A DNA stretch of 64,000 nucleotides from assembly GCA_020747065.1 (NCBI GenBank), contig JAGMVK010000014.1:620001-684000 (forward strand), written 5' to 3'. Below are positions 53,306 through 63,900 of the stretch, piece by piece. How positions within the stretch are numbered: position 1 is the stretch's first letter; each line of letters starts with the position of its first letter. The position numbers and the translations under genes are program-made. The notes beneath the pieces are model-generated. The model was not told where the DNA came from, searched no databases, and saw only the letters and a program-made list of their open reading frames with translations. This stretch comes from Cadophora sp. MPI-SDFR-AT-0126 (lineage: Eukaryota; Ascomycota; Leotiomycetes; Helotiales; Ploettnerulaceae).

Positions 53306-53522
53306 TGTTGGTCCGCAGGCCTATCCAAAGCATGTCTTAGCTAGAATAGGGGGTAGGACCACTTACGGGGGTGATTCGGTGGCGTTTCGGGAGGCAGTAT
53401 ATAGTCTAGTACCTCCCACCCCCTCTTAGAAGAAACACAGATTTTCCACACCATCAAGCTTGATATGCATATACATGATATTTACGTTTGATTCTTGGCT
53501 TATATTCGGTATTGAACCGACA
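53306..53522 (+). repeat. 5' LTR of the copia element
   Basis: Same 217-bp sequence as 60763-60979. It contains a CAGTATATAG box that may serve as TATA element, followed by a pyrimidine-rich CCTCCCACCCCCTC tract. Confidence 0.95.
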
Positions 53523-53820
53523 CTGATCAGTGGTCAATGCGAACCACAGACAGATAGGTCACGGCAGGACAAGCGGCGACTCAACGTTGAGTACTTAGCT
53601 GTACTTTTCGGGCCATCTTTGAACCTGAATCAACGATTGACGATTCAGTGGGAGGGGACCGGCATCACGTTTAGACTGCAAATCTCGTACGGCAGTACGC
53701 ATAACAACAGCGACGATTCCTCTTCGACAATCGTCAAGTCAATTGCTTGACTTCAGCTAAGGAGATTCCAAGCAAAAATCAAGTATCAGTTCCGGGACAC
53801 CACCGAATCAGGTACGAATC

Positions 53821-56800
53821 ATGGCCGAAGAAACACCAGTTACTTCGGATCAGGGTGGGAGAGAGGAAGAGACAGCTACGGGAGCAGAGGCGGAAGCGGT
53901 GGCGATGTGGTCAGGACCGCGACCAGTGGAAACGCCACCAGATGATGCTACGAAGCTCTCGCAGGAGTTTCGAAAGAACTTCTGCGATGGCCATTCTAAG
54001 GGCGAATTCCTATTCCTGGACTTTTGGGAATATTTCGGAAATTGGTCTCCAGGCCACTTCGCTCGCATCAAGAAGGTGGAACGAATGCACCTACGTGACA
54101 CGTTACGAGCAAACGGCGTGTTCGTACGGAAGGATAAGACACCAATTACGGTTGCACTCGCTCAGACAGCTCGAGCCGAAACTAACTTTTGGCCGGAAGA
54201 ACAGCTGGAGTTGCAGATTCGGAACGCTCCCGACACAGTACCGGACCATATTCAGAACCCTCGCCAAGCGACAGCTTCGACTACCCAAACACTTCATCAA
54301 GGAATGCTACCACCATCTCGACGCAACGGGCCAACTGTAGTGATCGATTCTGCTGAATCGACTCCTTCAGATGAGGAAGAGGGATTGCGCCAACATATTC
54401 CGTTGAGGAGCAATTTCCCAAGAGCCGAGGTGTCTCAGATCTCAGACCATCTCATGACCCCTGCCCATGTAAGGACCATCATTCCAGACGACGATCTGTA
54501 CGCCGCGACACCACCAGTTCGTACAAAGAGAGAGTTCTCATTTACCCCTGGGAGAGAATCCCTGAATACGGCGCCAAGGTGGAGACCGAACGAGAATCCA
54601 TTGCCAAACCCCGTACCAATTCCAGAAGTGCACCCACGGGATGGATCTTTGCCCCCATTTACGGTACCGAGAACAATCGGACCACATACGGAACAGATAC
54701 GGCCGCCTTGGTATGTCATGGAAACACTGACGCAGGATCAATCGAAATCGCTAGTGAACCTTAGCAAGATGTACACCAAAGAGCTTCAGTACAGTGGGTC
54801 CAAAGACCACTTGGACGAGAAACTACACATCTTTGCCGACTTCTGCCAGAAAGCAGGTGTTGATTATGACATTTGGCACCGGGCATTTCCGACGATGCTC
54901 CGGGACGGAGCATCTACGTACTATTACCGGTACCTTCAGAACAAAGGGTACAACTTTGACGAACTTGTCAAAGCAACACGTACCAATTTCGAGACGGAAG
55001 AGAGAGCCAACCAATTCCTCAGCCGATGGTTTAGCTTGACCTTCTTGTCATTTCAAGCTGAACCTTACCAGAAGGGCAGGCCAATTCTGGTCCAGTTGGA
55101 GAACTTTGCCAGAGAGCTGCAGAGCATCCAACTTGGTCTCAAAGACGACAATATGCGGAACGACAAAACTTTGCGCGACAAACTCGTGCAGGGAGTTTCA
55201 GGTAACCCACTCTTCAAGATGGCACTGTTTCGAGCACCACCAACTTTCCCTACATTGATGGACAGTCTTCGCACGGCTCTGAGCGTGGAAACGGCTCATG
55301 AGCCGGGATCACGAGTCGGTAAACACACCGATTCAGGGCCGAGTCGACACCGTGCCTACGTTGCGGACGGGACGGCCCACTACTCGGACCGAAGGATGAA
55401 GTTTTCCGCAGGCAACAAACGCGGAACTACATTCAAGCCCAAGCCAGGTTATACAGGGTGTATCGTCTGCAAGAAGATGGACTGCCACAGCAGCCGCCAT
55501 TCTAACGAGGAGCAGGCAGCCTCCAAAGCGCGATACTTTGCTGCACGAAAAGCTGAAGGTGTGAAACCTACAGAGGCATCATTTCAAGCCTACCTGGCAT
55601 ATGCAGAGGGAGTCGGATCGGGTTCGGGGGACATTCAGGGTCAGTCAGGAAGAGATGACCCAGATGACCCCGATAACCAAGACACTTCTTCCGGGATCGA
55701 TGAAACCTCCACAGATTCGGACAGCGGATGCAGCGATGGATCGGCCAACTTCACAACTGTGTTCAGTGCCAGTGAGGCAATGTACGATGCGCGGGAAGTG
55801 ATGGAACAACTTGAAGAGAAGAAGGCCACCCACATCCTGGAAAGCCGGATTCAGAAACCTCCAGAAAATGAGGCCTATACGACTCAATGGACGGACCGTT
55901 TCTTCCAAGGTCTTCTCATTGACACAGGCGCTTCTAACAAAAACGTTGGAGGTCTCAATCAATTACGTGCGTTGCAACGGATTCGAAATGTCAAATACGA
56001 TACCAGCGAGTCGGGTAAGAGTCGGATCAAATTCGGAGCAGGTTCACGACCTTCCCTTGGAATCGCCACAGTGGATACTCCAGTTGGAATTTTGGATTTC
56101 CATATTGTGGATACAGACGTGCCATTCCTGCTATGCTTGCAACAAATGGACAAGATGGGGGCATACTACGACAACATACAGAATGTGTTGGTTCAAGGTG
56201 ATAAGAAGTACTTGATTGTACGGAAGGATGATCATCCATGGCTGCTCTTGGACCAAAATCATCAACTTGTCGATTCTTCGAACAGTACCATCAACGAGTG
56301 CCACCTGACGGAGACAGAGATTCGCCGGCTACATAGGAGATTCGGCCATCCATCGGTACAACGGTTGCAACACCTGTTAGATCAAGCAGGCCATGATTCC
56401 GATTCCGAGATCATGTTACGAGTCAAAGAGATGTGTGAGCATTGCCAGAAACACGCAGACGCTCCACATCGCTTTCGCTTCAAATTGCAAGACGACATCG
56501 ACTTCAATCACACAGTCTATGTTGATATAGCACAATTTGGGAACCGATATGCACTTCACATGGTCGACGAGGCCACAGGGTTCGGAGCTGCGAAACTGCT
56601 CCGAAGGCGCCCCGGATCAGCTACGGCTCAGGCCACCTTCAATGCTTTCAAGTCAGCATGGATGGACACATACATTGGGCCCCCAGACTTCGTTGTCTAC
56701 GACTATGGAACCAACTTCAACTCTGAGGAGTTTCGGGGAGCACTCAGAGCAGTAGGAAGTACACCAAAGCTTGTGCCCGTGGAGGCACACCACTCAGTTG

Positions 56801-59175
56801 GCAAAGTAGAACGGTATCATCGTCCACTCAGGCGTGCCTATGAAATCGTCACAGTAGAGCATCCCGATCTGAGCGACGAGGATCGATTACAAATGGCTGT
56901 CAAAGCTGTCAACGATACAGCTGGACCGAATGGCTTGATTCCTACACTGCTCGTTTTTGGAGCTTACCCCAGAATGACAGAAATGGATCCTCCAAACCCG
57001 TCTATTCAGCAACGTGCGGAAACCATCAAAAAGGCCATGAAAGAAGTACGCAAGGTGCATGCTAAACGCCAAGCCAACGATGCGCTGGCAACCCGTAACG
57101 GCCCCGGTACGACGCACATTCATGATCTCCGGCTTCAAGATCAAGTTTTGGTATGGCGAGAAAAGAAAGGCTGGAGAGGACCATACATTTTCTTGGGAAT
57201 AGAAGGCGAGGCATGCAGGATCGATATGGACAACGGCAGAGTACGCACATTCCGATCAACATCTGTGCGCCCATTCAAAACAGATACATCTGGCGTTGAA
57301 CAAAAGAAAGAAAAAGTGCCAGATGTGACCCGTGAGCCTGGCTCACCAGTCCGAAAAGCCCACGAAACAGCACCGAAACTCCCCCGAATCACGGTTGAGA
57401 TCCCATTTATAAAACCAATCCCGGGACTACCAACAATTGATGACGACTACGATGCTAACGTGTTTCTGACTGAGAAGGAAACAAGGGATCGAGGGCTATC
57501 GATTAAGCTACGCGCAGAGGGCAAGATTACTACACCTGGCCCACCATTCCAGCAGTCCCGTCGAGTTGAGTATGAGGCTCTCATCAAGAGAGGCGTTTTT
57601 ATGCCGATTTCCAGAAATGACCCCAGAGCAAGAGGCCACCGCATCTTCAAATCAAGAATGGTGGACGAAGTAAAAGGCAAGGAATCATCAACACCATACG
57701 AGAAATCGAGGCTCGTTATCCAATGCTTCAACGACAAAGGCAAGAAAGAGATATTAACCCAATCTCCAACTATTCAACGGGTAAGTCAGCGATTGATCAT
57801 ATCACTGGCCGCTACTATGAGACATCCGAATCAGATCCGAAAGAGATCCGATATGCATCTAGCAATTCGGGACATCACCCAGGCCTATGTCCAGTCGACG
57901 ACAAAACTTCTTAGGAACATCCTTGCGTGGCCACCTGAAGAGATCGCAAATGAGTTCCCTCCTGATACGATATTTATGGTAATGCTTCCTCTTTATGGCA
58001 TACCAGAATCCGGAAATCACTGGTTTAACACCTACCATAAACATCATGTGGAAAAACTTCAAATGGAAACATCAACGTACGACCCTTGCTTGCTAATCAG
58101 CACCAAAGACAGCCACGATTTTGGGATTGTTGGAATGCAAACAGACGACACGTTAATCCTCGGAGATAATGAATTCTTAGCACGAGAGCAGGAAGGGATT
58201 ACGAAAGCCAATTTCTTGACAAAACCGATTCAGGTCCTAAACCCCTCCGAATCTATTACGTTCAACGGATGTACTATCACTTTGGCCGGGAACAACATCT
58301 ACATGTCGCAGAAAGGTCAAGGAACGAGACTAGAGTTAATTGATGTGACGGCGCCAGATTACAAGAAGGCATATGTGGAACAACGAGCTCGCGGCGCGTA
58401 TATTGCAACGATCTGTCAACCTGAAGCCACCTTTGATTTGTCGGTGGCAGCGCAACATCAGGATCCAACAGTAGAAGACGCGAAGGCCCTGAACCAACGT
58501 CTTCAATGGCAAATGGACAACACGGAGAGAGGTTTACGGTACATACCAGTGGACCTACACTCTGCCAGACTTTACGTCTTTGTCGATGGATCATTTGCCA
58601 ACAATAAGGATCTGAGCTCACAGATCGGGTTTCTGGTAACAATCGGATCAGAAACGGAGGGGGATTCGGAATTTACCCTCTCTGGCAACATCATTCATGC
58701 AAGCTCTACAAAGTGCAAGAGAGTAACGCGTGCTGTACTCGCTTCGGAGCTGTATGCTATGGTAGCAGGAATCGATATGTTGATTGCTTTGGGAACCACC
58801 GTCAATATGGTAACGGATAAGCTTGGACTCCCACGGCTTCCGACCGTGGTGTGTACAGATTCCCTATCTCTTTACGAGTGCATTATCAAACTTGGCACTA
58901 CAAAGGAGAAGCGTTTAATGATTGATATCATGGCAATTCGGCAGTCATATGAGCGCAGGGAGCTGACGGAGATTCGGTGGATCAATGGCACCAGCAATCC
59001 TGCTGATGCCATGACAAAGACAGCACCAAATAAAGCTCTCCAAGAGCTAATTGACACCAACACCTTGACTGTGAAGATAGAAGGTTGGGTTCAGAGGCCA
59101 CTTGATGTTGATTTGGAGGCTCGTTTGACTCATGATCGAGACTCACGAGTCGACAGGGTCGATTCGGGGGAGTAA
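53821..59175 (+). CDS. Copia gag-pol polyprotein (gag, protease, integrase, RT, RNase H)
   Basis: A single frame codes 1,784 residues in Ty1/copia order. Gag occupies roughly 1-530. A cysteine motif CIVCKKMDCHSSRH near 540 replaces the usual CCHC knuckle. The protease site LLIDTGAS is near 700. An integrase zinc motif (HRRFGHPS ... CEHC, ~840-880) is followed by a DDE core: YVDIAQFGN, VVYDYGTNFNS, then HHSVGKVERYHRP. The reverse transcriptase includes MHLAIRDITQAYVQS, LPLYGIPESGNHW and the active-site loop GMQTDDTLILGD, where QTDD stands in place of the common YVDD. RNase H begins LYVFVDGSFANN near 1580 and includes RAVLASELYAM. The length and absence of stops suggest activity. Integrase before RT confirms copia rather than gypsy. 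Confidence 0.96.
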   Translation: MAEETPVTSDQGGREEETATGAEAEAVAMWSGPRPVETPPDDATKLSQEFRKNFCDGHSKGEFLFLDFWEYFGNWSPGHFARIKKVERMHLRDTLRANGVFVRKDKTPITVALAQTARAETNFWPEEQLELQIRNAPDTVPDHIQNPRQATASTTQTLHQGMLPPSRRNGPTVVIDSAESTPSDEEEGLRQHIPLRSNFPRAEVSQISDHLMTPAHVRTIIPDDDLYAATPPVRTKREFSFTPGRESLNTAPRWRPNENPLPNPVPIPEVHPRDGSLPPFTVPRTIGPHTEQIRPPWYVMETLTQDQSKSLVNLSKMYTKELQYSGSKDHLDEKLHIFADFCQKAGVDYDIWHRAFPTMLRDGASTYYYRYLQNKGYNFDELVKATRTNFETEERANQFLSRWFSLTFLSFQAEPYQKGRPILVQLENFARELQSIQLGLKDDNMRNDKTLRDKLVQGVSGNPLFKMALFRAPPTFPTLMDSLRTALSVETAHEPGSRVGKHTDSGPSRHRAYVADGTAHYSDRRMKFSAGNKRGTTFKPKPGYTGCIVCKKMDCHSSRHSNEEQAASKARYFAARKAEGVKPTEASFQAYLAYAEGVGSGSGDIQGQSGRDDPDDPDNQDTSSGIDETSTDSDSGCSDGSANFTTVFSASEAMYDAREVMEQLEEKKATHILESRIQKPPENEAYTTQWTDRFFQGLLIDTGASNKNVGGLNQLRALQRIRNVKYDTSESGKSRIKFGAGSRPSLGIATVDTPVGILDFHIVDTDVPFLLCLQQMDKMGAYYDNIQNVLVQGDKKYLIVRKDDHPWLLLDQNHQLVDSSNSTINECHLTETEIRRLHRRFGHPSVQRLQHLLDQAGHDSDSEIMLRVKEMCEHCQKHADAPHRFRFKLQDDIDFNHTVYVDIAQFGNRYALHMVDEATGFGAAKLLRRRPGSATAQATFNAFKSAWMDTYIGPPDFVVYDYGTNFNSEEFRGALRAVGSTPKLVPVEAHHSVGKVERYHRPLRRAYEIVTVEHPDLSDEDRLQMAVKAVNDTAGPNGLIPTLLVFGAYPRMTEMDPPNPSIQQRAETIKKAMKEVRKVHAKRQANDALATRNGPGTTHIHDLRLQDQVLVWREKKGWRGPYIFLGIEGEACRIDMDNGRVRTFRSTSVRPFKTDTSGVEQKKEKVPDVTREPGSPVRKAHETAPKLPRITVEIPFIKPIPGLPTIDDDYDANVFLTEKETRDRGLSIKLRAEGKITTPGPPFQQSRRVEYEALIKRGVFMPISRNDPRARGHRIFKSRMVDEVKGKESSTPYEKSRLVIQCFNDKGKKEILTQSPTIQRVSQRLIISLAATMRHPNQIRKRSDMHLAIRDITQAYVQSTTKLLRNILAWPPEEIANEFPPDTIFMVMLPLYGIPESGNHWFNTYHKHHVEKLQMETSTYDPCLLISTKDSHDFGIVGMQTDDTLILGDNEFLAREQEGITKANFLTKPIQVLNPSESITFNGCTITLAGNNIYMSQKGQGTRLELIDVTAPDYKKAYVEQRARGAYIATICQPEATFDLSVAAQHQDPTVEDAKALNQRLQWQMDNTERGLRYIPVDLHSARLYVFVDGSFANNKDLSSQIGFLVTIGSETEGDSEFTLSGNIIHASSTKCKRVTRAVLASELYAMVAGIDMLIALGTTVNMVTDKLGLPRLPTVVCTDSLSLYECIIKLGTTKEKRLMIDIMAIRQSYERRELTEIRWINGTSNPADAMTKTAPNKALQELIDTNTLTVKIEGWVQRPLDVDLEARLTHDRDSRVDRVDSGE

Positions 59176-59466
59176 CGGAGGAGTTTCGGATGAGGAGCAG
59201 TTTTTCCTTTGTTATGATTTCCTTACAACTCTCATTAATCACTTGCAAGTATTTTCATTTCTGTTCAAGATACGGAGGAGAGAACGAGTTTGATTTGCAT
59301 TTAATTACCCTCTGATTCAAAGCACCAACGGGCGGCCTTGCGACGACACTCCAACAGGGACCAAATGCCGGTTTCACCACAGGGGGCTACTCCCGTACAC
59401 CGGTATGAAGAAAGTGCCGCCACGAAGAACCAGCCACGAAGCCTTTCCGAAACAGGGCCTATTCCC
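59176..59466. other. Copia internal spacer after pol
   Basis: About 290 bp lies between the convergent ends of gag-pol and the antisense gene. It has no coding evidence and presumably holds their 3' untranslated parts. Confidence 0.5.
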
Positions 59467-60271
59467 CTAATCGTAGGCGGCTCCCAAATCGACTGGCTCA
59501 GCGCCAGTTTCCTCCACCTCCGCGCCACCTGGGCGTCTTCCACCCCGAGTTCTCTTTGCCCGAGGGGCCGGGCCAGCTCCCTCATCATCTCCATCTCCAT
59601 CTCCATCCTGTCCCGCAGGACGCTTACGCTTGTCACCACCACGACGAGCAACGACCGCAGCCACGGCCTCCTCCACCCGCTTCTCCATGCGGGAGAGGAT
59701 CTGCCCGCAGTCCTATGAAAGGTTAGCCGGACGTGAACCGGAGTACATACGGTGGGGATTCGGAACGAAAAGAAAAGGGGATTACCTACGAATTGACTTT
59801 GGGCGAGATCCGCCATCCCAGCACGGAGAGCACGAGTCTCCTCCAACAACGCCAAACTCAACTCGTCGCGAGTTTTTGGCAACTCGGCGACCGCAACACG
59901 GAGCTCTGCATCGAGAGCAGCAGCAGCAGCAGAGATGTTATCGGTCTCCTCAAGAGTCCGGGCAAGCAGGAGATCTTGGTACTCGGCTTCCAAGTACCAG
60001 GGCAGCTATATACGGGTCAGTTACGGACTACATTCGGGGATCCGAGATCCCAAACAATGAAAAGAAAGGGGGAAACAAGGGGAGTACCTACGGGAGTGCA
60101 GATTTCGCTCTGGTCGGTACAGTACGAGCATTTCTTGCTCTTCCGGTTCTCGAAGGCGCAGACGTGATCGGGTTTCTTGATCATGGCTCGGACGCAGCGA
60201 ACGCAGTCCTTCCGGTGGGCAGAGGCGAGAGCTCCGAATGGTGTGGGTGCAGGCACTGTTTGTGTTAGCAT
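59467..60271 (-). CDS. Antisense spliced gene inside the copia element: Cys-rich coiled-coil protein
   Basis: Three exons, 60092-60271, 59790-60005 and 59467-59712, all phase 0, give 213 residues. Both introns start GTAGGT and end TAG (86 and 77 nt). The N-terminal 60 residues hold six cysteines at 23, 26, 38, 48, 51 and 58 (CVRC, HVC, CSYC, EIC), i.e. C-x2-C-x11-C-x9-C-x2-C-x6-C. This is like a Zn2Cys6 cluster with a lengthened first loop. Residues ~61-130 are Ala/Leu/Glu-rich (LEETDNISAAAAALDAELRV) and probably coiled coil. The C-terminal part has KRKRPAG and RAKRTRGGRRPGG, likely nuclear-localising, and an acidic end. No stops or frameshifts occur. Function is unknown; an accessory regulator or RNA/DNA-binding protein of the element is inference. 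An alternative first exon starting at 60317 cannot be excluded. Confidence 0.78.
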
Positions 60272-60762
60272 CCGTTTCACCACTGAACCACCTACGATTC
60301 TTTTGTTTTGTATACATACTTTTGCTTATTTGATTTGGTACGGGCTACAGCAAAATGTTAGCGAATATCTCTGGAGATCGACAATTCTGTGTACGTACGG
60401 AGAGTTTTTTGATGTTTGCTTAAAGAAAGAAAGCTTCAGAATGGAGGGAGATCTGGTTTTTGTAATAGTACAGCCAGCGGTGGTCTCGCTTAGCGTCTGT
60501 TTACTTGCTATTGTCTTCTGACGGGCCGCATCAACTACTTCCGTGGGAGGTTTTTCAGGCCAGAATCGGAGGTCTTTCGGACTATGGTACTTCCGTAGCT
60601 CCGTACCTGGTACGCTCATTCTATTTTTCTTTGCGAATATGGTCATTCTGTACAGCTTGTTTTCTTTACCATTGGGTTGGAGGTTCGATTCTGTATTGGA
60701 GATTCGCTTCTGTACTATGAAGATTCGCTTGGAAGTGTCCTTCCAAAAAGAAGAGTTGCTAG
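60272..60762. other. Copia 3' internal region / antisense promoter
   Basis: About 490 bp lies upstream of the antisense gene and downstream of pol. It should carry the antisense promoter. A purine run aaaaagaagag at 60745-60755 lies seven bases before the 3' LTR and may be the polypurine tract, though such tracts usually abut the LTR. Near-repeats of 'ggttcgattctgtattggagattcgcttctgta' character occur at 60680-60730. Confidence 0.4.
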
Positions 60763-60979
60763 TGTTGGTCCGCAGGCCTATCCAAAGCATGTCTTAGCTA
60801 GAATAGGGGGTAGGACCACTTACGGGGGTGATTCGGTGGCGTTTCGGGAGGCAGTATATAGTCTAGTACCTCCCACCCCCTCTTAGAAGAAACACAGATT
60901 TTCCACACCATCAAGCTTGATATGCATATACATGATATTTACGTTTGATTCTTGGCTTATATTCGGTATTGAACCGACA
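60763..60979 (+). repeat. 3' LTR of the copia element
   Basis: Identical by eye to the 5' LTR over 217 bp, and followed by the TATAA duplication. Confidence 0.95.
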
Positions 60980-60984
60980 TATAA

Positions 60985-63900
60985 GCTATGTTATTTTTTT
61001 ATAGATAAGTATTTAGTTAGATTAAGATATTTCTAAGTAATTATATAAGGAACTAAACTAAAGAGAAAAAAGTCTTTAATTTTATATCTAAAAAATTATA
61101 AAAAATCTTCTGGAACTTTAAAGGATTTAAGAACTATATTAATAAGGTCTTTAGTAATATTAATTAAGAATATATAGTAGAATGTAGTATTTAAAACCTT
61201 AAATAAATTAAGTTTACTACTTCTTATACTACTACTTTCTAATAGTTTACTAACTAAATTAGTTAGAATAATAATACACTTAAGGCCTAGTATTATAAGA
61301 AACTAAAAGATAAAGTAAAGAACGAGATTATAAGATCTAACGCTCTAAATAACTTATAAGAGCTTATTAAAATAGCTATTAAGATTAATAACTATAACTA
61401 TAAGCGTGCCTTAGAAAAAAAGAGCTAGTATCGTATAAGGGGATATATATATTAAGGGTATAGTAATAAGAAACTCTTTTACCCTTATAAAATAGAGCTA
61501 GATATAACCTTTTATAAGAGTAATAAAGAGAGACTACGTAATAGCAGGCTCTCTAAGAAGGTTATAAATAAGCGGCGAAAAAAGAAGTTATACTTTAAAT
61601 ATAAGTTACTAAGTTATATAGCTAGCTCTTATTAGTAAAAGAAGTAATAGTTAAGTAAGAAATACACTAGTATTATAAGATATAGTAGTTATAATAGTCC
61701 AGTTAGATAGCTCGCTATTATATATTAATATATAACTATTAATAAGCTTAAGGAATACTATATCTATACTTAACTTAAGAGAGCTAAAGATAATAATAAA
61801 TAGAGCTTATCTAAAAATAACTATATCTAAGAGTATATAATAGAGTCTTCCAGACTTATATAAGCCTTAGAGGAATTTGTAATAATAAACTATAAGAAAG
61901 ATAGTAAAAAGAGCTTAGAGTTAAATAGAAAAGAGGAGGTTTAGCTTCTCTTATAGATACTTAAACTAAGACTACTATAATCTCTATAGCAAGACCTTAA
62001 GATTAAAGAATAGTAAAAAGTTTCCTAATAAAAGAAAAGCTTTTATAATCTGACTTATAATACTTATTACTAGACTTAGATTAATACCGCTGAAACTATT
62101 AAAAAGCTAAGTATAATTAACTTAAGAGGACCTTAGTAAATAGATATCTATAAAGTAGTTTACTAAGACTATTAAAGGATTAACTAAAAGTAAATTAATA
62201 CGAATAGAACTTATATATAGTTTCTTCCTTAAGACTAAGCCTTAATCCTTAATACTAGTAAGTTACTATAACTAAGAGAAGTCTAGGAAGTAATAACTAA
62301 AGGTATTAGCTAAAGGATATAAGTAGAGATTAAAGATAATACTTAAGCTTATTATAAGGCTCGAAACCTAATTACTTTCTAAGAGCTTGAATAGAGATAT
62401 ATATTTAAAGTAATAATTATTACCTAAATCTTAAGAGTTTAGTAAAATATCCTAATAGAAGAATATTATATTAAGTACTTCTTAACTTAATAGCTTACTA
62501 CTACTAAGGAATAATACCTTATAGTAAATATAAAGATTAGAGAAGTAAAGCTATAAGTAATAATAAACTCTAGAGTATAAAGGAATTTTATATCTTCTAC
62601 TATTATACTTTAGTATTTCTTATTAATTGTAATTAAGGCTAACTAGTACTACTTAATACTAGCTAATAGTAAAGCTATAAATAGTAGATTAGTTAATATA
62701 GCTATAGTACTATTATATATAAGTATTATAAAGTACTCTGAGATTATCTAGTTTAATATTACTAAAATTAAGAGTATAATATTATCTTAAGACTACCTTA
62801 GATAGAGAAATATAACTCTATTATTAATTAAATAATAAGTAAAATAGAATTTAATTATTATAAGAATAAGTGCTTTCTACTAGGAACAGAAGCTATAAGT
62901 ATTCGAGAGATTAGCGCTACCTCTAAGGAAGAGCTTAGATACTAAGATATAAGTCTACTAATAAAGGATATACTATTAATATATTATAAGTTTATAGTAC
63001 TATTCAGAGAAGAACAAGGTATTAAGGCCTTACTTAAGTACTAAGATTACGATTATTAGATTAAACTAGAACCGGGTACTTAGCTAATATTTTAGCTATT
63101 AAGAGAATATTTAGTAATAGACTTAATAATAATTAAGTAATATATTAATAAAAGCCTAGTAAAAGAGTTTATTAGAGAGTTTAAATCCTTATAAGAGAGT
63201 AATGTTTTTTTTACTAAAAAAAGAATAAAAGATAATAAATATATATTAACTACTATTAATTAAATAATACTACGAAGAAGGATTATTACGTATTACTATT
63301 AGCTAAGGAGCTATAAGATAGACTTATAAGGGCTAAGATCTTTACTTAGCTTAATTTAAGAGACGTATATAACCTTATTAGGATAGCTAAAGATAAAGAA
63401 GAGAAAATAGTATTTTATATATATTTTAGATATTATAAGTATATAATTATACCTTTTAGCTTAACTAATATACTAGCTATATTTCAGTATCTAATTAATA
63501 ATATTTTATAACTATACTTAGACGTAACTTATATATATTACTTAAATAATATACTTATCTATTCTAAGAGTAAGAAGTAGTATAAGAAAGATATAGTAAC
63601 TATTCTTAAACAACTAGAAACTATATATATACTTCTTAAATTAGAGAAGTATAACTAGTATATAAGTAAGGTTATCTTCTTTAGCTATATAATTACTACT
63701 ACTAAGTTAGCTATAAATCTAAAAAAGATTGAAGTAATTAAAGAGTAGAGCGGACCTATAAGTATTAAGGAGGTATAATCCTTCCTTAGGTTTACTAACT
63801 TCTATAGGCGATTTATTAAGGACTATTCGAAAATCACTAGATCACTTATAGAACTAACTTATAAAGATAAGGAGTTCTATTAATCTAACTAAGCCTAAGC

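Follow-up and report, generated by a model that had tools for sequence, protein, structure and literature searches.

The window analysed here, a stretch of 64,000 nucleotides from Cadophora sp. MPI-SDFR-AT-0126, harbours a complete Copia LTR retrotransposon (Table 1), whose two LTRs are alike at 217 of 217 bp and which is flanked on both sides by the TSD TATAA. A gene lies on the minus strand between the end of gag-pol (59175) and the 3' LTR (60763), antisense to the element; both its location and the intactness of the element had been described in the initial annotation and stand. The whole element is letter-for-letter identical in eight copies (the window's included) among the matches listed, indicating that it moved recently. 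The DNA beside it, at least from 60985 to 62500, is very AT-rich by eye, which is typical of RIP-mutated repeats.

Table 1. Features of the Copia element and of its antisense gene, in window positions.
Feature	Positions	Strand	Remarks
LTR element, complete	53306-60979		7674 bp
5' LTR	53306..53522	+	217 bp, TG...CA; match to 3' LTR; TSD TATAA 53301-53305
CTGATCAGT	53523..53531	+	abuts 5' LTR; same as a common CHSeq1 form (there are two) described for fungal GalEa (PMC5445492)
gag-pol, single open frame	53821..59175	+	ATG at 53821; 1804-aa frame from 53761
3' untranslated region, conserved	59283..59466	-	78% identity to gypsy element C, 192 aligned positions
Exon 3	59467..59712	-	KRKR basic patch, acidic/Gly-rich tail, stop TAG
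Intron 2	59713..59789	-	GTAGGT...TCATAG; 77 nt (B 77, C 145)
Exon 2	59790..60005	-	216 nt in A, B and C
Intron 1	60006..60091	-	GTAGGT...TATATAG; 86 nt (B 78, C 95)
Exon 1, coding part	60092..60255	-	164 nt in A, B and C; six cysteines; its first bases, TG, complete the proposed split start codon
Proposed intron 0	60256..60319	-	GTATGT...GCTAAC...AAACAG; holds the ATG of the initial annotation
Proposed 5'UTR exon	60320..60344	-	last base is the start-codon A; 25 nt (A, B) or 30 nt (C, D)
Proposed 5'UTR intron	60345..60398	-	GTACGT...GCTAAC...TGTAG; comparable signals in all of A-D
3' LTR	60763..60979	+	TSD TATAA at 60980-60984

Fungal GalEa elements (FunCo8) are described as marked by KSRLVI and QTDD in the RT, CQPEA at the start of RNase H, ADxxTK, DTG(C/A) and a gag C2C4C4H finger, and as having LTRs of 138-311 bp (with one outlier) that run TGT..CA, a 5-bp TSD, CHSeq1 and one large gag-pol ORF (PMC5445492). 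Read by eye, the window gag-pol carries C2C4C4H (CIVCKKMDCHSSRH in the translation), DTGA, KSRLVI, QTDD, CQPEA and ADAMTK. The layout agrees as well (217-bp LTR, TATAA, CTGATCAGT and one 1804-aa frame). Against Pfam, the same gag-pol gave gag_pre-integrs and rve, both below their cut-offs. CHSeq2, the complement of CHSeq1, was matched in part by ACAGATAGG in the leader (by eye). Named from its motifs, and with CHSeq2 partial, the element appears to be a GalEa-like Copia. Its 7674 bp lie outside the 5428-7018 bp (average 6100) given for fungal GalEa elements, a range that is descriptive and not part of the definition (PMC5445492), and the excess is about the size of the 1587-bp stretch between pol and the LTR that houses the antisense gene.

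A DNA search of the fungus's own genome returned at least 41 matches, corresponding to 40 copies when the window's is counted. The frame and introns 1 and 2 are kept in 16 of the 40 aligned copies, 13 of them of type A (the window included) and three of type B, while the remaining 24 are decayed or partial. Base differences of the 24 decayed copies from the nearer intact type were C>T or G>A in 4395 of 4463 cases, and 2341 of these RIP-type changes stand before A. Gaps were left out of these counts, and each decayed copy was compared with A or B, whichever left fewer non-RIP differences, a procedure that favours RIP somewhat. As the changes are almost all of RIP type, the frames of the decayed copies were not broken at random, the outcome that had been named beforehand as speaking against a functional gene. 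One copy (L028, G000:C38:1302949-1311224) is an A/B mosaic that supplies 26 of the 68 non-RIP differences; its antisense gene is of type B at the start and of type A at the end, which suggests that the two Copia subtypes recombined or that the template was switched from one to the other.

Three intact protein types (A, B and C) are present in this genome among the matches listed. The third, C, was found by a protein search at no fewer than seven places with equal scores, and its pol matches were 100% at all seven. One type C copy (L056) has LTRs of about 225 bp that are 99.6% identical and a 5-bp TSD, CTAGG (by eye). Its gag carries a zinc knuckle and its pol matched RVT_1 (E 1.4e-36), RT_RNaseH, Integrase_H2C2, rve and SH3_Tf2-1 in Pfam; from this gag and pol domain set, element C is a Ty3/gypsy element. 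The antisense gene occupies the same place in C as in Copia A, in the same orientation and with the same intron positions. All 21 listed copies of these three types with an unbroken pol frame carry it (11 of type A, three of B and seven of C, those of C being counted from stop-free exon matches, with splice sites read in one copy), in agreement with the earlier proposal that the gene belongs to the element.

Two gypsy relatives of C (L063 and L064) share 61% RT identity with it, and one of the two has an unbroken 1514-aa frame, the one listed copy outside types A, B and C with an unbroken frame above 1000 aa. Neither showed the antisense gene in the stretches read (best tblastn E values of 0.085 and 0.35), which may miss the 3' LTR. 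Since the relative with the unbroken frame shows none in the stretch read, the gene does not seem to be needed by all such elements. In L063 (G000:C12:3816600-3820900) there is a long open pol frame and, nearby, a second long frame, on the minus strand, that resembles the endonuclease of a non-LTR element by eye. Two relics of the antisense gene, D and E, were also found. The flank of relic D resembles the 3' end of A/B, and relic E adjoins a GalEa-type RT match at C17:75213-76202. Exon 3 of relic D was not found in the stretch read (L057, G000:C3:1968000-1970400), which covers the LTR-side flank and has a host-like open frame nearby from 2057 onward.

Exons 1-3 of the antisense gene are in frame, with no stops across both introns and no lesions, and the minus-strand structure with three coding exons and the two GTAGGT...TAG introns, as first described, is real as far as the sequence can tell. 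The lengths of exons 1 and 2 are constant in A, B and C, and exon 3 measures 246, 234 and 213 nt respectively, so that coding changes come in threes; noncoding lengths do not change in threes (86/78/95 nt in intron 1, 77/77/145 nt in intron 2 and 25/25/30 nt in the 5'UTR exon). It might be suspected that open frames and GT/AG signals came together here by chance, as the GC-rich region also yields a long frame in the sense direction (259 aa in A). The longest sense frames in B and C reach 163 and 157 aa, so no long frame is kept and sense-strand coding was rejected, whereas all three types retain the antisense structure, as do the relics D and E in part, making a chance origin highly improbable. 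A shared motif upstream of the gene was dropped as a candidate, being present in A and C and absent in B and D.

The start of the gene probably differs from that first proposed, an ATG at 60271 opening a protein of 213 residues. Type C (L056) and the older relic D (L057) have no ATG at this place. In A, B, C and D, an acceptor-like AAACAG or AAGTAG stands ahead of a conserved TGCC (AG|TGCC). A sequence resembling a branch point reads GCTAAC or GTTAAC in A, B and D, and C has the weaker TTGAC. Each of the four also has a donor, GTATGT or GTAAGT, at 63-71 nt upstream of the TGCC acceptor, preceded by an exon whose last base is A. A start codon formed by splicing, A(60320)|TG(60255-60254), is thus possible in all four lineages read, and these signals make it more likely than the ATG at 60271, which would lie inside the likely intron 60319-60256, close to its end. 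The joining would give an N-terminus MPxPxP (MPAPTP in A, B and C) and predicted proteins of 208 (A), 204 (B) and 197 (C) aa. The frame-breaking difference in length between A and B (25 nt) and C and D (30 nt) argues that the 5'UTR exon is noncoding. One further 5'UTR intron (60398-60345) is likely from its signals. The initial observation was thus partly confirmed: its exons, introns and location stand, and its start codon is probably another.

The predicted protein has six cysteines, C-x2-C-x11-C-x9-C-x2-C-x6-C, with equal spacing in A, B and C (by eye), and a KRKR-type basic patch in exon 3; the ordered cysteines and the basic tail had both been recognised initially. Zn(II)2Cys6 clusters are spaced C-x2-C-x6-C-x5-12-C-x2-C-x6-8-C. 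The cysteine spacing differs from this, and at E <= 1 none of the A, B and C proteins gave such a Pfam match, so membership of this family, and with it the label 'zinc-cluster', is not supported. Pfam searches with the A, B and C proteins returned no family at its cut-off. In a collection that may hold few fungal proteins, no homologues outside this genome were found for the type A protein at E <= 1 or for the type C protein at E <= 10. A PDB search, made with type C only, gave a single chance-level match (9r2o_A, E 0.16), and the structure model of exon 1 (pLDDT 57.6) was too poor for a fold search. The middle of the protein is probably helical. From its composition, we infer a putative nuclear regulator that would bind metal and nucleic acids.

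Coding constraint was analysed among the intact types, excluding RIP-decayed copies; the near-identical A copies differ by too few changes to contribute. The pN/pS ratio was 0.564 between A and C and 0.574 between B and C, values reached by 1 and 0 of 1000 neutral simulations respectively, and 0.648 between A and B, where 65 of 1000 simulations were as low (not significant). The frame stayed open under neutral drift in 6 of 1000 simulations for A-C and in 112 of 1000 for A-B. The simulations used a fixed transition bias of 3 and started from A or B. NG86 gave dN/dS values of 0.35 (A-C), 0.38 (B-C) and 0.58 (A-B), and YN00 values of 0.23, 0.33 and 0.63 respectively. Across methods, dN/dS was 0.23-0.40 for A-C and B-C, with dS near 1.1-1.8; A and B are close relatives and these two comparisons are not independent. 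A dN/dS near 1, another outcome that the initial annotation had set against its reading, was therefore not what A-C and B-C gave, while the A-B values (0.58-0.63) are not significantly below neutral.

The constraint varied along the gene. Between A and B, dN/dS was 0.84 in the first 85 codons and 0.37 in the rest, and in the later part of the gene it was 0.52 for A-C and 0.54 for B-C. For gag-pol, the A-B comparison gave a dN/dS of 0.14 with a dS of 0.67, compared with a dS of about 0.28 for the antisense gene. With an A-B dN/dS of about 0.6 vs. 0.14, the antisense gene is less constrained than gag-pol, and these ratios point to a constraint that is loose and varies along its length. From the last part of exon 2 into the beginning of intron 2 (approximately 59790-59900), A and B show no difference, against 81-84% identity in the 250-bp windows around, a pattern that looks as after gene conversion. 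This stretch and the lower dS of the antisense gene suggest a later exchange between A and B.

The 3'UTR of A and that of C are 78% identical over 192 aligned positions (59467-59283). It is closer between the Copia and gypsy versions than two longer coding matches, which are 70% identical. The split between Copia and gypsy is far too old for the similarity seen between the A and C genes, so that an exchange between Copia and gypsy elements is the natural reading. We infer that the gene and its UTRs form a module that was moved between Copia and Ty3/gypsy in this fungus or its ancestors, and the sharing is the surprising part of the result. Inheritance of the gene by both superfamilies from their common ancestor, with no exchange, would account for the like position and orientation in both. 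With the 3'UTR identity and the dS between A or B and C much closer than so old a split would allow, and with the gene missing from the stretches read of the two gypsy relatives, we regard such inheritance as very improbable.

The main rival to a protein-coding gene is a noncoding antisense RNA, in which a spliced lncRNA would pair with the genomic RNA (acting through dsRNA, siRNA or transcriptional interference) and the protein frame would be incidental. Spliced antisense RNAs of Blumeria hordei Copia and Ty3 elements were judged noncoding by their authors, according to the text accessible to us (PMC10648671); these are likewise spliced antisense RNAs on fungal LTR elements, and here a protein frame is read from the sequence. 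The strong conservation of the 3'UTR would also suit an RNA, but no unusual fold was found in it (z -0.28; 66 of 200 shuffles fold equally well), and the 3'UTR as a structured RNA was rejected. Exon changes in threes, the constant cysteines and their spacing, and pN/pS below neutral in A-C and B-C also speak for the protein, and we consider the noncoding alternative unlikely.

A captured host gene carried as neutral or nearly neutral cargo would explain the introns and UTRs, which fit the capture of a whole gene, and the weak constraint between A and B. Against it stand at least three intact lineages in two superfamilies and the constraint between them; the search for a host homologue covered the matches listed and the surroundings of some of them. 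We give this explanation a small but appreciable chance. Our preferred explanation, which we consider probable on the sequence evidence, is a self-contained Pol II accessory gene that lies antisense in a GalEa-like Copia, is spliced, codes for a protein of about 200 aa and was exchanged with Ty3/gypsy elements. The proposal of the initial annotation is thereby supported in its core, an element-borne, spliced, antisense protein gene, with another start codon and without the zinc-cluster label.

Under the preferred explanation, the gene would be transcribed and spliced on the minus strand from a promoter in the LTR or in the interval that separates the gene from the 3' LTR. Its introns would outlast retrotransposition, as the sense genomic RNA would carry them as their non-spliceable complement. 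Splicing would assemble the A|TG start codon, and the product would be a protein of about 200 aa whose head holds the six conserved cysteines, whose middle is probably helical and whose basic tail resembles a nuclear signal. As one gene serves both Copia and gypsy, its target would be something common to both (host silencing or transcription) and not a gag/pol partner. Its role would most likely be to control how the element itself is expressed or silenced.

To our knowledge, no function has been established for the additional antisense genes that LTR elements carry. HBZ of HTLV-1 is a spliced antisense regulatory gene at the 3' end of a retroelement and codes for a bZIP protein; the arrangement is alike and no sequence relation is claimed. 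The nearest precedent, likened here by its description, appears to be brtn, the antisense extra gene of Boty-like elements in Botrytis cinerea and Sclerotinia (Zhao et al. 2011, as cited in PMC7264820, PMC8365987, PMC4227169 and PMC5987419). As far as these citing articles describe it, brtn is also an antisense extra gene of an ascomycete LTR retrotransposon, and a review groups it with the extra genes located after pol and before the 3' LTR. Boty-like elements have a chromodomain (PMC4227169, in the text accessible), whereas here one carrier is a GalEa-like Copia and the other a gypsy element in which no chromodomain was matched.

The antisense ORFs (aORF-3R) of the plant elements Retand, Grande and RIRE2, with a predicted DNA-binding domain in Retand (PMC7264820, PMC11963269), are, in the portions of the two articles consulted, similar in being antisense, in their site between pol and the 3' LTR and in the proposed role as DNA-binding or nuclear regulators, but they have plant carriers and other proteins (in Retand, one with a TRP28 domain). 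Neither article uses the word 'intron' in its main text. Bdelloid LTR and Penelope-like elements share ORF3s of GDSL, DEDDy, CC and TM types (PMC5408684), another case of an extra gene type common to very different retroelements; the text accessible does not describe them as antisense genes with splicing ('intron' is absent from it, and 'antisense' appears once, for small RNAs). Within the literature covered, often in partial text and for brtn through citing articles, the search returned no spliced antisense protein gene in Copia and none common to Copia and gypsy. With brtn and the Blumeria RNAs in print, the novelty initially claimed was too wide. Antisense extra genes in LTR elements were already known (brtn, Retand), and new here, as far as this literature goes, are a predicted spliced antisense protein gene in Copia and its sharing between Copia and gypsy.

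Genes that gain their start codon through splicing can escape annotation that relies on ORFs. A wider reading, which we offer tentatively, is that an autonomous cassette (promoter, four introns, splicing-made start, protein and 3'UTR) was exchanged between two superfamilies as a counter-silencing or copy-control factor, and that some 'noncoding' spliced antisense RNAs could be its relatives. If this were true, relatives would have been missed since their start codon arises only after splicing. The sharing between Copia and gypsy within the same genome suggests that the gene is useful to either kind of element, and the system offers a ready comparison, with one host, two unrelated carriers and many RIP-marked copies.
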